From Actinoalloteichus fjordicus (GTDB lineage: Bacteria > Actinomycetota > Actinomycetes > Mycobacteriales > Pseudonocardiaceae): a DNA stretch of 64,000 nt. The notes under the pieces are model-generated. The model did not search any database. It worked only from the letters and a program-made list of their open reading frames with translations, and had not been told where the DNA came from. The position numbers were made by a program, and so were the translations under genes. Positions 24,960 through 36,140 of this stretch are shown piece by piece. How positions within the stretch are numbered: the first letter of the stretch is position 1; each line of letters begins with the position of its first letter. Location of the stretch: positions 1,736,001 through 1,800,000 of the forward strand of contig NZ_CP016076.1 in NCBI RefSeq assembly GCF_001941625.1, written 5' to 3'.

Positions 24960-26303
24960 TCAGCGGTAGTTCGAGGGCGGTGTCTCGCCGAGCACGGCGG
25001 GCGCCACTCGCTGGCCGTCACCGAACACATCGTCGGTCTCGACCAGGTAGTCGGCGCGCTTGTGCTCCTTGTCGTCCTCACCGTCCTGGGCCTGGCCGCC
25101 GCGGCCGCCGCCCGCCATTCCGCCGCCTGCCATACCGCCGCCCGCGCCACCGCCGCCGGGGCCGAACCCGCCGCCCGCCGGGCCGAAGCCGCCGCCACCG
25201 GGACCGAAGCCGCCGGGCATCCGGCCGCCCATGCCGCCGCCTGCGCCCCCGCCCGAGGGGCCGAAGCCGCCGCCGGGCCCACCGGGACCGCCGCCGAAGC
25301 CGCCGGGCATCCGGAATCCGCCTGGTCCACGTCCGCCGCCGCCGGGGCCGCCCGCGCTGCCGCCGGGTCCGCCCGCACCGCCGCCGGGCGGAACGAAGCC
25401 GTTCGGACCCGGACCGTTAGGGCCGTAAGGCCCGCCGGGGCTCGGCCCGTTGGGACCGATCGGACCGTTGGGGCCGGGGAAGTTCGGGCTGGGCGAGTTC
25501 GGGATGTTCGCGTCGGGGCTGATCGACGGTGGCTGGTTGGGTGTCGGACCTCCCGGCGGGACGTTGCCGGGCGGTGTGAAGCCGCCGCCCCCGCCGCCGC
25601 CCCCGCCGCCGCCGCCGCCGGTGGGTACTTCACCGGGCGGCGTCCAACCGCCGCCCCCGCCCCCGCCGCCGGAAGGAAGGGAGCCGAGCCCGCCCCCGGA
25701 CCCGTTGCCCCCGCCGCCATTACCGCCGCCGCCGTTCCCACCCGGGTCGACTCCGAGGGTGTCGGCGCCCTTCATCGAGATCTGCACCTCGGCGGGCTGC
25801 TCGAAGACCGGCAGGTTGTTGACGTTATCCGAGGTCTCCATGCCGTAGGAGTTGTACGCGGCGATGTTGGCGCTGCTCTGCTCCTGGTTCGCCTCTTTCT
25901 TCCGGTCGTAGTCGATCTCCCACGGGACCGGGCTGTACCAGGGCTCGTTCGGCACTTCCGGCGGCTTCTCGATGTTGCCCGCCGCTGTCCGGAAAGAGCC
26001 GCTCTGGGAGGCGACCTTGTACGAGATGTCGGTGCAGGTCTGCTCTGCGTTGACCGCATACTCGCTGAACGGTTTGACCGCACTCCCAGCGTTGTCCGCT
26101 GCCGTACCGGACCAGCCGACCTGGGCTTCGACGACGGCCTTGTCTACGATCTCGAAAACGTCCCGATAGCTTCTACCTACATCAAGCCATGCTTCATAGT
26201 TCGGGTCGGTTGTGCTCTCGGGGCCGGTAGCATCGGTGTGGAACCAGGCGTAGATCTCATCTCCGTCGACTGCGCGGCACTGTGGGACGATGGGCTCGCC
26301 CAT
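24960..26303 (-). CDS. PPE-like type VII secretion substrate with glycine/proline-rich body
   Basis: 447 residues. Residues about 1-165 are helical with a central VGWSGTAADNAGSAV (a WxG turn) and YEAWLDVGRSYRDVFEIVDK, as in PPE/WXG100-type substrates of actinomycetes. Residues about 195-400 are an extreme Gly/Pro-rich low-complexity region (GGNGGGGNGSGG and GGFGPGGGG types). The last 35 residues are distinct and charged (ADYLVETDDVFGDGQRVAPA), a tail I associate with PPE-like proteins of Pseudonocardiales. The start lies 1 bp after the lipoprotein stop, so translation is coupled. It is probably exported or surface-exposed. The EspG gene downstream is the expected chaperone. Confidence 0.8.
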   Translation of the reverse strand: MGEPIVPQCRAVDGDEIYAWFHTDATGPESTTDPNYEAWLDVGRSYRDVFEIVDKAVVEAQVGWSGTAADNAGSAVKPFSEYAVNAEQTCTDISYKVASQSGSFRTAAGNIEKPPEVPNEPWYSPVPWEIDYDRKKEANQEQSSANIAAYNSYGMETSDNVNNLPVFEQPAEVQISMKGADTLGVDPGGNGGGGNGGGGNGSGGGLGSLPSGGGGGGGGWTPPGEVPTGGGGGGGGGGGGGFTPPGNVPPGGPTPNQPPSISPDANIPNSPSPNFPGPNGPIGPNGPSPGGPYGPNGPGPNGFVPPGGGAGGPGGSAGGPGGGGRGPGGFRMPGGFGGGPGGPGGGFGPSGGGAGGGMGGRMPGGFGPGGGGFGPAGGGFGPGGGGAGGGMAGGGMAGGGRGGQAQDGEDDKEHKRADYLVETDDVFGDGQRVAPAVLGETPPSNYR

Positions 26304-29929: not shown

Positions 29930-30601
29930 GTGCCAGATCGACAACCCACTTCGATCGGCGCTCCTGCGGAGTGGGCGCCGACCGCTGTCGTGCGCCCGGC
30001 GAACGCCAGACTTTGTTCGCCGAGCATCGTCAGAGCCGATCCGACTCCGTCTGCGCAGGCGGTGCCCGCCGGGGAGACACCCTCGCCCTGGGCCAGGCGT
30101 CAGGTCCTGCTGCTCAATGCGACCTACGAGCCGCTGGCGGCGCTGCCGCTGCGTCGGGCGGTCGTCCTGGTGATCTGTGGCAAGGCTGAAGTGGTGCACG
30201 ACGACCCGCAGGGGCTTGCGGTGCATTCGGTGAACGCCAGCCAGTCCGTTCCCTCCGTCATCCGGCTCAGCCGATTCGTGCGGGTGCCGTATCGCGGCCG
30301 GGTGCCGCTGACGCGGGCCGCGCTGATGCTGCGGGACCGCTACCGCTGCGCCTACTGCCGGGGTCGGGCGGAGACGGTCGACCACGTGGTGCCGAGGAGT
30401 CGGGGCGGCAGTCACTCCTGGGAGAACTGCGTCGCCTCCTGCGCGCGGTGTAATCACCGCAAGGCTGACCGGCTGCTCCGGGAACTCGGTTGGCGGCTGC
30501 TCACGATTCCTCGGGCGCCCTCCGGGCCTTACTGGCGGCTGCTGGCCGGCGGCGAGACCGACCCGCTGTGGCTGCCTTACCTGGGCGAACCCGCCGCCTG
30601 A
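29930..30601 (+). CDS. HNH endonuclease (Rv2469c-like)
   Basis: 223 residues. After a variable head comes VLLLNATYEPLAALPLRRAV, the conserved start of the Rv2469c-type HNH family. The nuclease motif follows: CAYCRGRAETVDHVVPRSRG, then ENCVASCARCNHRKADRLL, giving two CxxC zinc pairs (CAYC, CARC), the catalytic DHVVPRSRGG and the terminal NHRK. GTG 29930 has GGAGGTGG 4-7 bp upstream; GTG 29990 is a shorter alternative. The gene is the homologue of the HNH gene between glbO and the DUF5130 gene in mycobacteria. Its biological role is unknown, although it is very widely conserved. It converges on the repeat gene, with 28 bp between stop codons. Confidence 0.9.
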   Translation: MPDRQPTSIGAPAEWAPTAVVRPANARLCSPSIVRADPTPSAQAVPAGETPSPWARRQVLLLNATYEPLAALPLRRAVVLVICGKAEVVHDDPQGLAVHSVNASQSVPSVIRLSRFVRVPYRGRVPLTRAALMLRDRYRCAYCRGRAETVDHVVPRSRGGSHSWENCVASCARCNHRKADRLLRELGWRLLTIPRAPSGPYWRLLAGGETDPLWLPYLGEPAA

Positions 30602-30629
30602 GGAATTCGTGGTGTGGGCAGGCGGTAGG

Positions 30630-31280
30630 TCAACGCCCGCCGGGTGTGACGCGCACGCCTGCCTGGAGTCCGCGTCGGGTGACGCGTACGCCGCGACCGG
30701 ACAGCTCGCGCACGGGGGTGTGGGTGACCCGGACTCCCTGTCTGGTCACTCGGACGCCCGCCTCGGGAGACCGGGTGACGCGGACCCCCGCCTCGGGAAG
30801 TGCTCGGGTGACGCGGACGCCTGCCTTCGGGAGTCGGGTGACGCGGACGCCTGCGTCGGGGAGACCTCGGGTGACGCGGACGCCTGACTCGGGAAGTCGT
30901 CGGGTGACGCGAACCCCGGCTTCGGGCAGGTGCCTGGTCACCCGGACGCCCGCCGTGCTCCTCGTGACCCGGACTCCGCAGTCCGGCGTGCGTCGGGTGA
31001 CGCGAACCCCGGCCTCGGGCAGGTCGCGGGTCACGCGGACACCGTCCTGAGGCAGCATCCTGGTGACGCGGACCCCGAGCGTCAGGGACAGCCCGGACGG
31101 CGTCGAATCGGTGCGCGTGACGCGCACCCCTGCGGACGGCGTCGACCGAGTCACTCGGACCCCCGCTCTCGCGGCAGGCTCGTCAGTACGCAGAGTCGTT
31201 GTCGCACTGTGCGGTGCGGTAGGGCGGCTACCGTTGGGACGGGTGGTGTCCTTGCTCCATACGTGGATGTTGAAAAACAT
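30630..31280 (-). CDS. GVRVTR-repeat protein of unknown function
   Basis: 216 residues. ATG 31280 has a perfect AAGGAG about 9 bases upstream. Residues 1-39 (MFFNIHVWSKDTTRPNGS onward) are non-repetitive and lack a signal peptide. From residue 40 there are 16 copies of GVRVT[R/H/P] (14 end in R) separated by spacers of 5, 12, 5, 5, 5, 3, 5, 5, 5, 4, 5, 4, 1, 9 and 5 residues. Common spacers are LPEA, LPES, LPDA or TPSA with one preceding residue, so the basic unit is 11 residues. Alternating V-R-V-T suggests short beta strands joined by Pro turns; the protein is strongly basic. No known family is recognised. Possible readings are a beta-solenoid surface or nucleic-acid-binding protein, or a multi-core peptide precursor. 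It interrupts a conserved gene order. Confidence 0.7.
   Translation of the reverse strand: MFFNIHVWSKDTTRPNGSRPTAPHSATTTLRTDEPAARAGVRVTRSTPSAGVRVTRTDSTPSGLSLTLGVRVTRMLPQDGVRVTRDLPEAGVRVTRRTPDCGVRVTRSTAGVRVTRHLPEAGVRVTRRLPESGVRVTRGLPDAGVRVTRLPKAGVRVTRALPEAGVRVTRSPEAGVRVTRQGVRVTHTPVRELSGRGVRVTRRGLQAGVRVTPGGR
30642..31163 (-). repeat. tandem coding repeat array (16 units, mostly 33 bp)
   Basis: Each unit encodes GVRVT[R/H/P] on the minus strand. Unit-to-unit distances are all multiples of three. Differences between units fall almost wholly at wobble positions: Gly is GGC, GGA, GGG or GGT; Val is GTC, GTG or GTT; Arg is CGC, CGG or CGA. That points to old repeats held by protein selection rather than a recent slippage expansion. 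The plus strand also reads as VTRTP repeats, because the wobble positions of the two strands coincide, but that frame hits a stop at 31048-31050. Confidence 0.85.
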
Positions 31281-31730
31281 GATGTCATCTCCTTGACGTC
31301 GATCCGGACGGATCTTTCGCCTACTGGATGTGTGCAAGACCCGTACAGGTGAAAGTAGAAGCCTGGGCGGGCCTGGACAAGCCGCCAATGTGAGTGGCAT
31401 TCACCCCCTTCTGGTCCGGGTCCGAACGGGGGAGCCTGCTGGTCCGACCGAGTGATCCCTGCCGGTGCGACTCCGTGCTGAAGGGTTACCCGTCGTAGCG
31501 GGCGTATAAGCACTCGCACACCTAGCGTGATGGACGATCGCGATGCGTGGTTGCCTCGGGCGGCGATTCCCGACGATCGGATGGTTCCGCGCCGCAGGCG
31601 CACCGGGCCCGCCCGCCCGCCGTCGCAGACCGATGGACCGGGGTGGCCGAGCCCGCCGTCGGCGAGTGATCTCGGGCGGCGTTGACACGCAGACACCCTG
31701 GTGGTCGACCCGTGGGCTACCGTACGAGGC
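31281..31730. other. intergenic region holding divergent promoters
   Basis: About 450 bases between the minus-strand repeat gene and the plus-strand small membrane gene. The leader of the repeat gene carries the AAGGAG site (around 31290-31295) and, further upstream, a short GTGA(7)TCAC dyad near 31390-31404 on the minus strand. On the plus strand I see no clear sigma-70-type promoter. No gene or terminator is apparent. Confidence 0.4.
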
Positions 31731-32012
31731 GTGACCGTAGTGGAGACAATCCTCGTCTTCGTGCTGATCCCCCTGGTGGTCTACGGCGTGGTGATGATGC
31801 TGACCCTGCGGCAGAAGGCTGCTCGGGCTGCGCGCTACCGCCCCGGCCAGGAATGGGACTACCGACCGGTGTGGTGGACCGCGAACCCCGCGGGCCTGAG
31901 CGAGGCCCAGCGAGCCAGGGCAGCCGCAGCCGAGGAGCACGACGACCAGGCAGCGCAGACCGACGACCCGAACGTGTCGACGGCCAGGGGAGGTGCTCGT
32001 GGGAACTGGTGA
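31731..32012 (+). CDS. small single-pass membrane protein (possibly CtaJ-like)
   Basis: 93 residues. An N-terminal transmembrane helix (VVETILVFVLIPLVVYGVVM) is followed by a basic stop-transfer LRQKAARAARYRPGQEWDYR, a tryptophan-rich PVWWTANPAG and a charged Ala/Glu/Asp tail facing the cytoplasm. The helix followed by RPGQ.W....VWW resembles a small actinobacterial protein annotated elsewhere as aa3 oxidase subunit CtaJ, but I am not sure of this. GTG 31731. It overlaps the DUF5130 gene by 14 bp, so the two are coupled. Confidence 0.7.
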   Translation: MTVVETILVFVLIPLVVYGVVMMLTLRQKAARAARYRPGQEWDYRPVWWTANPAGLSEAQRARAAAAEEHDDQAAQTDDPNVSTARGGARGNW

Positions 32013-32493
32013 GCTGACCCGCCGAGTGGAGGCCGCCGATGCCGATCTCGGCCTCGGCGCCGTGGTGACGTCCACCGGCCGAGTGTCCGTCGCTCGCAGG
32101 CTGACGCGTGACGAGGAGCCCGCGCTCCCGTTCACACCGTCGCAGTTGGCGCGGCTCGACGAGGCGCTGACGCTGGCAGGTCGGTCCACCGGGCTGGACT
32201 TCAGCATCTACCTCGGCGGCCTCGGCGAGGACAGCAGGGCACGGGCGGAGGAGCTGCACGCCTCCATCGGGTTCGCCGCGCGGGACGCCGTCCTGATCGC
32301 CGTGTCGCCTGCCGGGCGGGTGGTCGAGCTGGTGACGGGCTTCGAGGCCGCACGAAGGGTGCCCAACCGGGGCTGCAAGCTCGCCGTGATGAGCATGGTC
32401 GCCTCGTTCAAGGAGGGCGATCTCGTCGGCGGGCTGCTCAGCGGCCTGCGGATGCTCTCCGACCAGGCGGGCAACGAGCTGACGACCCGGTAG
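31999..32493 (+). CDS. DUF5130 / TPM-like domain protein (Rv2468c-like)
   Basis: 164 residues. SLG-type core: LDFSIYLGGLGEDSRARAEE, DAVLIAVSPAGRVVELVTGF, RRVPNRGCKLAVMSMVASFK and the Gly-Leu ending GDLVGGLLSGLRMLSD. This is the DUF5130 pattern, related to TPM phosphatase-like domains. The function is not established. GTG 31999 is preferred because GGGGAGG ends 5 bp before it; GTG 31993 is also in frame. It matches Rv2468c in position between the HNH gene and pepN, and forms an operon with the small membrane gene in front. Confidence 0.82.
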   Translation: MGTGELTRRVEAADADLGLGAVVTSTGRVSVARRLTRDEEPALPFTPSQLARLDEALTLAGRSTGLDFSIYLGGLGEDSRARAEELHASIGFAARDAVLIAVSPAGRVVELVTGFEAARRVPNRGCKLAVMSMVASFKEGDLVGGLLSGLRMLSDQAGNELTTR

Positions 32494-35977: not shown

Positions 35978-36015
35978 GGATCCCTTCCCGCCGGATGACC
36001 GGCGGGGAGGGATCC
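35978..36015 (+). terminator. intrinsic terminator hairpin
   Basis: A 17-bp stem (35978-35994 with 35999-36015) starting GGATCCCTTCCCG and closing GGGGAGGGATCC, one G-U pair and an ATGA loop. It ends the Rv2466c-like transcript. Short GATGCGCCTC repeats follow it (about 36026-36075) before the aldehyde dehydrogenase gene. Confidence 0.8.
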
Positions 36016-36140
36016 GCCTCCGCAGAGGGGGATGCGCCTCGCGGGGATGATGCGCCTCGGCGGGGAGGGATGCGCCTCGGCGGGCGGGTGTGCCACGCTC
36101 GGGGCCGACGCATCGACCGCGCACAACTCGGGGAGGACCC

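Follow-up and report, generated by a model that had tools for sequence, protein, structure and literature searches.

The window analyzed was a 64,000-nucleotide stretch of the Actinoalloteichus fjordicus chromosome. An ORF on its minus strand encodes a protein of 216 amino acids consisting of a head and an array of short repeats (Table 1). The start codon, the ribosome-binding site and the 39-residue head followed by 16 exact GVRVT pentads, as given in the first-pass annotation, were confirmed. The residue after the pentad was Arg 14 times and His and Pro once each. The 11-residue rhythm described there held for nine of the 15 spacings (11, 18, 11, 11, 11, 9, 11, 11, 11, 10, 11, 10, 7, 15 and 11), the others ranging from 7 to 18. 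Among 2,000 residue shuffles of the protein none had more than one GVRVT. As previously stated, no signal-peptide-like hydrophobic stretch was seen on reading the head by eye. The C-terminus is PGGR, without an LAA tail.

The opposite strand of the array is also open over long stretches and reads as a VTRTP repeat. Against the nearest relative, L005, the minus frame had a pN/pS of 0.45 and no stop, the runner-up frame, on the opposite strand, had 0.52 and two stops, and the remaining four frames had 1.21 to 1.71. Plus-strand coding was disfavored by these ratios and stops. Judged by this frame-wise comparison, the minus frame is the coding frame of the array.

Table 1. Features at the pentad-array locus (window positions)
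Feature	Position	Strand	Basis
HNH endonuclease gene, convergent (tested segment)	29993..30601	+	Downstream convergent neighbor in 100/109 loci
Pentad-array protein CDS, 216 aa and stop (ATG at 31280, stop codon ending at 30630)	30630..31280	-	ORF reading, frame-wise pN/pS, unit count
Array of 16 GVRVT pentads and linkers	30645..31163	-	Unit count; pN/pS against two congeners
Head, 39 residues, common within the genus and varying between genera	31164..31280	-
Ribosome-binding site AAGGAG	31289..31294	-	Read from the sequence
Conserved 18-base element CACCTGTACGGGTCTTGC	31334..31351	-	No other site in the genome within 1 mismatch of CACCTGTACGGNCCTTGC; family conservation
-10-like TACTTT	31352..31357	-	Spacer 17 from the -35, as in 120/123 matched relatives; uncalled by sigma-70 consensus scan
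-35-like TTGTCC	31375..31380	-	Uncalled by sigma-70 consensus scan
M103, small putative membrane protein, divergent	31701..32012	+	Upstream divergent neighbor in 100/109 loci; no Pfam match above cut-off
DUF5130	31993..32493	+	Pfam PF17174; 97/109 loci

The neighbors were counted in 109 loci, 102 from the motif scan described below and seven from a genome homology search. Eight of the nine loci without HNH end in or just past the array, and no HNH match was present in 3.5 kb downstream in Saccharomonospora saliphila (L045). Where M103 or DUF5130 is missing, the locus starts a short way upstream of the array. What had been described as a break in a shared gene order is better seen as a family-wide gene with fixed neighbors. 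PADLOC gave HNH-type matches for the neighboring gene and none for the array proteins. Elsewhere in the window a tandem array of about 4.3 copies of the 20-base unit CGGCGGGGAGGGATGCGCCT lies at 36000-36084. Overlapping GC-rich short tandem repeats with periods of 12 to 90 bases, likely a Gly/Pro-rich coding stretch, lie at 25105-25476 and 25581-25620.

Distribution of the pentad-array family

In a first protein search, of 60 relatives, clear homologues turned up in the two remaining genomes of the window genus (identities of 74% and 60%) and in G025 and G022, from two further genera. Three weaker matches, at other genomic positions and with E about 0.005, were discarded. The first homologues, G025 excepted, shared upstream sequence. 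Named genomes were scanned for the upstream motif TTTCACCTGTACRGNNCTTG, giving 107 stretches. In 102 of them the first base of the motif was followed, 71-75 bases on, by the start of an ATG ORF containing one or more pentads. Among the other five, L094 is cut by the end of the locus, its head being that of the full SVRIT member L146; L110 and L120 have no pentad ORF after the motif; L024 (Saprospiraceae) and L088 (Granulosicoccaceae) were rejected as unrelated motif matches. Apart from the latter two, all of the 80 titles listed are from what we take to be Pseudonocardiaceae genera, a placement that rests in part on the HNH tree. They include Amycolatopsis, Saccharothrix, Actinokineospora, Kutzneria, Kibdelosporangium, Prauserella, Saccharomonospora, Actinophytocola and others. 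One record, titled Rhodococcus rhodnii strain NRRL B-16.. (L107), has an HNH gene grouping with Kibdelosporangium and an array of the Kibdelosporangium type, and so is probably mislabelled or contaminated.

A search anchored on HNH, independent of the upstream motif, covered 36 Pseudonocardiaceae-type genomes including that of the window. A pentad array lay beside HNH in 32 of the 36. In three genomes without an array (G004, G005 and G030) the gap between HNH and the M103 match was only 45-126 bases; in the fourth (G006), which counts neither for nor against an array, HNH was diverged and the M103 and DUF5130 neighbors were absent from the stretch read. In most of the genera sampled in this family of soil bacteria, a pentad-array gene occupies one fixed chromosomal spot. 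When 390 family genomes were searched simply by protein similarity, ten matched at E 1e-4, eight of them true and two (G163 and G218) low-complexity; this count is far below the HNH-anchored one because linker differences hide most members. G163 has at least six dispersed low-complexity arrays (L015, L018-L022) of about 21-base units, with frames reading VGFGCLN or GTRLPECEVRVPE, which are unrelated to the pentad arrays.

Two class-wide searches were insensitive, both missing the window's own gene. Profile A1 matched in 27 of 394 class genomes; G074 and G035 were true members within the family, and for the 25 other genomes 18 loci were given, and the 14 of them that were read showed no pentad array. 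A query built on the second family described below (f4) matched in 18 of 394 class genomes and recovered none of the window family's genes; the loci read (20/20) held only low-complexity or hexapeptide proteins and no such array.

After identical entries among 140 were merged, the sequence set comprised 124 distinct sequences, of which 119 were complete. It was filtered for a motif with at most seven mismatches and at least two units, leaving out G025 and any member without the motif. Complete members had 3 to 51 copies. The existence and conservation of the pentad family are solid. The window protein passed no curated cut-off in Pfam or NCBIfam, and in those parts of the literature that were available the family was not described and pentad words occurred only under unrelated titles. 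This bears out the earlier statement that no named family has the unit. The gene is core-like in an antibiotic-producing family and unnamed in the libraries searched.

In f4, a family of the same order, tiny proteins of GxR[VIMF]G units are encoded convergently beside the HNH gene, in the matching place. Arrays were present at eight of 14 HNH loci found in 17 genomes, with 2-7 units where readable and one locus partly masked. The chain ends exactly on a unit in the f4 forms (L267 excepted), as it does in Kutzneria. No copy of the 18-base element was seen in seven f4 upstream stretches. On sequence and position, the f4 and pentad arrays agree in place, orientation and unit, and common descent is a possibility. 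A filter-based look at ten loci from other families of the order gave no array.

Pentad words, selection and flanking signals

Ten lineage words were found: GTRVT, GTRIT, GVRVT, GIRVT, GVRVN, GIRVN, GVRIH, GVRIS, GVRIE and SVRIT. The repeat reported as GVRVTR is thus real, and its unit is a pentad with genus-dependent spelling rather than GVRVTR as such. One word is used nearly throughout each protein and differs between genera or lineages. Deviant units were rare (for example a single DTRVT, GIRVT or SVRVT in a protein, and three GTRVV units in L102). When the Arg position was not fixed, 1672 of 1683 G[TVI].[VI][TSNHE] units and all 274 SV.IT units had Arg there. Its codons were AGG or AGA in 186 of 1967 cases and otherwise CGN, in units pre-selected by an Arg-demanding pattern. 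On an HNH tree of 70 rows, a weak tree with 14 of 67 inner branches starred, eight words required nine changes compared to 22.1 on shuffling. Prauserella shujinwangii, with 12 GVRVT units, fell inside GTRVT relatives (99/81 support). Together with the whole-word differences this indicates that whole arrays change word together, and the switching of words between lineages is solid.

The pentads are under sharper selection than the neighboring enzyme. Ten Amycolatopsis proteins of 123 amino acids had 9 nonsynonymous and 683 synonymous pentad differences (pN/pS 0.007), with pN/pS of 0.082 in the linkers, 0.80 in the head and 0.23 in the tail. In ten Amycolatopsis proteins of 117 amino acids the pentads had 9 and 785 (pN/pS 0.006) and the linkers 0 and 141, with pN/pS of 1.06 in the head and 0.28 in the tail. 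The HNH gene of the same species gave 0.051 and 0.026, above the pentads (pS of 0.235 and 0.146 for HNH compared to 0.199 and 0.245 for the pentads). Within the window genus, against two congeners, pN/pS was 0.16-0.18 in the pentads, 0.54-0.74 in the linkers and 0.28 to 0.96 in the head, L005 having some decayed or misaligned units. Synonymous change in the Amycolatopsis head and first three pentads was several-fold below most of the later array. This makes the head pN/pS look higher, and it may reflect an RNA-level constraint on approximately the first 150 coding bases, at the 5′ end of the message. By these substitution counts, protein-level selection on the pentads is extreme in Amycolatopsis and that on the head is much less. 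The first-pass annotation had tied the gene to a conserved head; the head proved not to be conserved across genera. Since the relatives read keep the array in frame, the pentad gene stands despite the head variation.

A TTG[TC]-type -35 and a TAnnnT were present in 123 of the 124 sequences, with a spacer of 17 (120) or 18 (3). After the -10, CACCTGTACGGNYCTTGC was near invariant across 65 distinct sequences. Most of the 124 sequences were found through the motif, so the fair number is that from the HNH-anchored search, where 30 of the 32 array genomes had the element with at most 4/21 mismatches. The exceptions were G025, without the element (eight mismatches), and G035, with an indel (seven). 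A sigma-70 consensus scan of 30500-31800 called no promoter and no terminator. No regulon was apparent in the window genome, which had one site with at most one mismatch and 21 sites with at most three, compared to 51 for a backwards control. The 18-base element is probably an operator or start-site element. The 5′ UTR of 42 sequences showed no fold (mean z +0.59 against plain mononucleotide shuffles), pairing between the ribosome-binding site and the first 14 bases occurred in 9 of 123, and Rfam had no match in the window region or four relatives.

Many of the proteins end like a tmRNA tag. In raw counts, LAA was the C-terminus of 56 of 119 complete proteins and AA that of 73; the AA end alone means little since the HNH neighbor often ends in AA too. 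The LAA tails fitted [DE][FYL]xLAA in 48 of 56 cases. LAA was missing from 63 complete proteins, the window protein among them. The tmRNA tags of 16 Pseudonocardiaceae genomes all ended in LAA, and 14 fitted [DE][FY]xLAA. The tag of the window genome is ADNKSRAEYALAA. An unusually long tag, ADESQHAPVQGARADFALAA, was predicted at L202 in G006, which has no array beside its HNH match.

Interpretation of the pentad array

The beta-solenoid proposed in the first-pass annotation is plausible but weakly supported; AlphaFold2 gave beta-helix-like models of low confidence (mean pLDDT 64.4 and 60.1), the five models disagreed, and Foldseek found nothing at E 0.001 for either model. The best PDB matches of a GTRVT profile were hexapeptide beta-helix enzymes (best E 7e-4). 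The f4 protein P0002 passed Pfam Hexapep PF00132 (36.1 bits, cut-off 27), as none of four unit-permuted controls did. The window protein had no Hexapep match up to E 1 and no DUF2345 match, and neither it nor the GTRVT proteins tested passed the cut-off of any beta-helix profile. For DUF2345 (cut-off 30.7) the SVRIT relatives L126 (80.9) and L023 (42.4) passed and L101 (19.0) failed. An SVRIT test piece kept the match (55.3); four of five permuted controls fell below and one that kept the V.I alternation scored 47.4. Permuted controls also gave unrelated matches above cut-off (YTV 41.7, Gp5_trimer_C 35.9, Antimicrobial_7 37.0 and P53_C 33.7), and L126 passed several unrelated Pfam models such as Sarcoglycan_1 and Pirin_C_2. 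Profile matches of such repeats therefore weigh little.

The reading that we tentatively prefer is a cytosolic, multivalent protein that stacks as beta structure, displays an Arg ladder and, where tailed, is short-lived. The working unit of this tandem-repeat protein would be the pentad [GS]-[TVI]-R-[VI]-[TSNHE]. Each pentad would form one short beta strand with the beta-branched positions 2 and 4 facing inward and the invariant Arg at position 3 facing outward, and Gly/Ser and the linker would make the turn. Stacked in register, within one chain or across several, identical pentads may build a solenoid- or prism-like rod, the Arg ladder of which would offer a partner one repeated binding surface. 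As units would have to match each other, the partner or both, a lineage would change the word in all copies together. The ssrA-like tail of about half of the sequences would make these short-lived Clp substrates. Of the readings, beta stacking accounts best for the constraint on every copy and for word changes that affect all copies at once. Against it, a chain of only 2-3 units, as in f4 and Kutzneria, could not make a stable solenoid alone and linkers range from 1 to 35 residues, so a precursor of peptides or an array of flexible motifs may apply instead.

The main rival, itself unlikely, is the multi-copy precursor already raised in the first-pass annotation. The array would be cut to pentads or hexads, by Clp after LAA recognition or by an Arg-specific or other protease, yielding a lineage-specific signal or modified product. 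The many copies of one genus-specific word, the weakly constrained head, the linkers varying freely in the window genus and others, and the tiny forms ending exactly on a unit all fit this. However, the constrained leader, modifying-enzyme neighbor and constant cleavage site that were looked for were not found: the head ratios are not those of a RiPP-type leader, although the synonymous rate there is low too; no modifying enzyme, exporter or receptor is among the fixed neighbors HNH, M103 and DUF5130, although an enzyme could lie at a distance; and the arrays showed no constant cleavage motif. The Amycolatopsis linkers are conserved too, and individual copies are under stronger selection than a precursor with redundant copies would require.

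Somewhat less probable is an array of flexible short linear motifs, disordered until each binds the one domain of a common partner or, in basic members, a polyanion such as nucleic acid or polyphosphate. The invariant Arg, the wide variation in linker length and copy number, and net charges per copy of approximately +1.3 for GTRVT and +2 for window-type GVRVT favor it. The basic surface suggested in the first-pass annotation is not general, as SVRIT proteins are about neutral (mean +0.03, range -0.89 to +1.00 per copy). This speaks against plain charge binding, and no partner was found. We regard as doubtful a lineage-coded peptide language, in which Clp would cut a short-lived polyprotein to pentapeptides and the word of each genus would address its own receptor. 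It is very unlikely that the protein is a Clp decoy or clamp, an abundant substrate occupying ClpX through its tail: many members have ssrA-like tails under constraint, but more than half of the complete proteins, including that of the window, have no LAA, and the pentad words would go unexplained. That there is no protein gene but a DNA or RNA repeat or an opposite-strand frame is scarcely credible, since the openness of the other strand is set against free synonymous sites with fixed amino acids, a start codon, ribosome-binding site and upstream element at near-constant distance, and the lack of an Rfam match or 5′ UTR fold. The whole-word change between genera is a natural variant series for finding the partner.

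Among known systems, the hexapeptide-repeat left-handed beta-helix (PF00132) resembles GTRVTR and GARIGR arrays in its six-residue period and inward-facing V/I; it differs in that linkers break the period in many genera and the arrays have no enzyme domain. The VgrG-type beta-helix (DUF2345) shares an 8-residue, SVRITARD-like period, but the arrays lack any other VgrG part, are cytosolic single genes, and matches of this kind arise easily in repetitive permuted controls. Pentapeptide-repeat proteins (MfpA, Qnr, AlbG) have the consensus A(D/N)LXX without linkers. The arrays differ from them in word and in having linkers, Z was in the range common for repeats, and no Pfam Pentapeptide model matched the window protein (E up to 1) or seven relatives (E up to 0.1). 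Multi-core precursors, fungal Kex2-processed repeat proteins (PMC7329392) among them, likewise carry many near-identical short units per chain, with the units differing by lineage, whereas the array is bacterial, with no signal seen, no constant processing site and a weakly constrained head. The ssrA tag differs from the array tails in being added by tmRNA instead of gene-encoded, the window protein lacks such a tail, and degradation of tailed members is putative. The likeness itself lies in the genome-encoded [DE][FYL]xLAA tails of 48 of the 119 complete proteins, many members seeming to encode a copy of the cell's own degradation tag in the gene itself.
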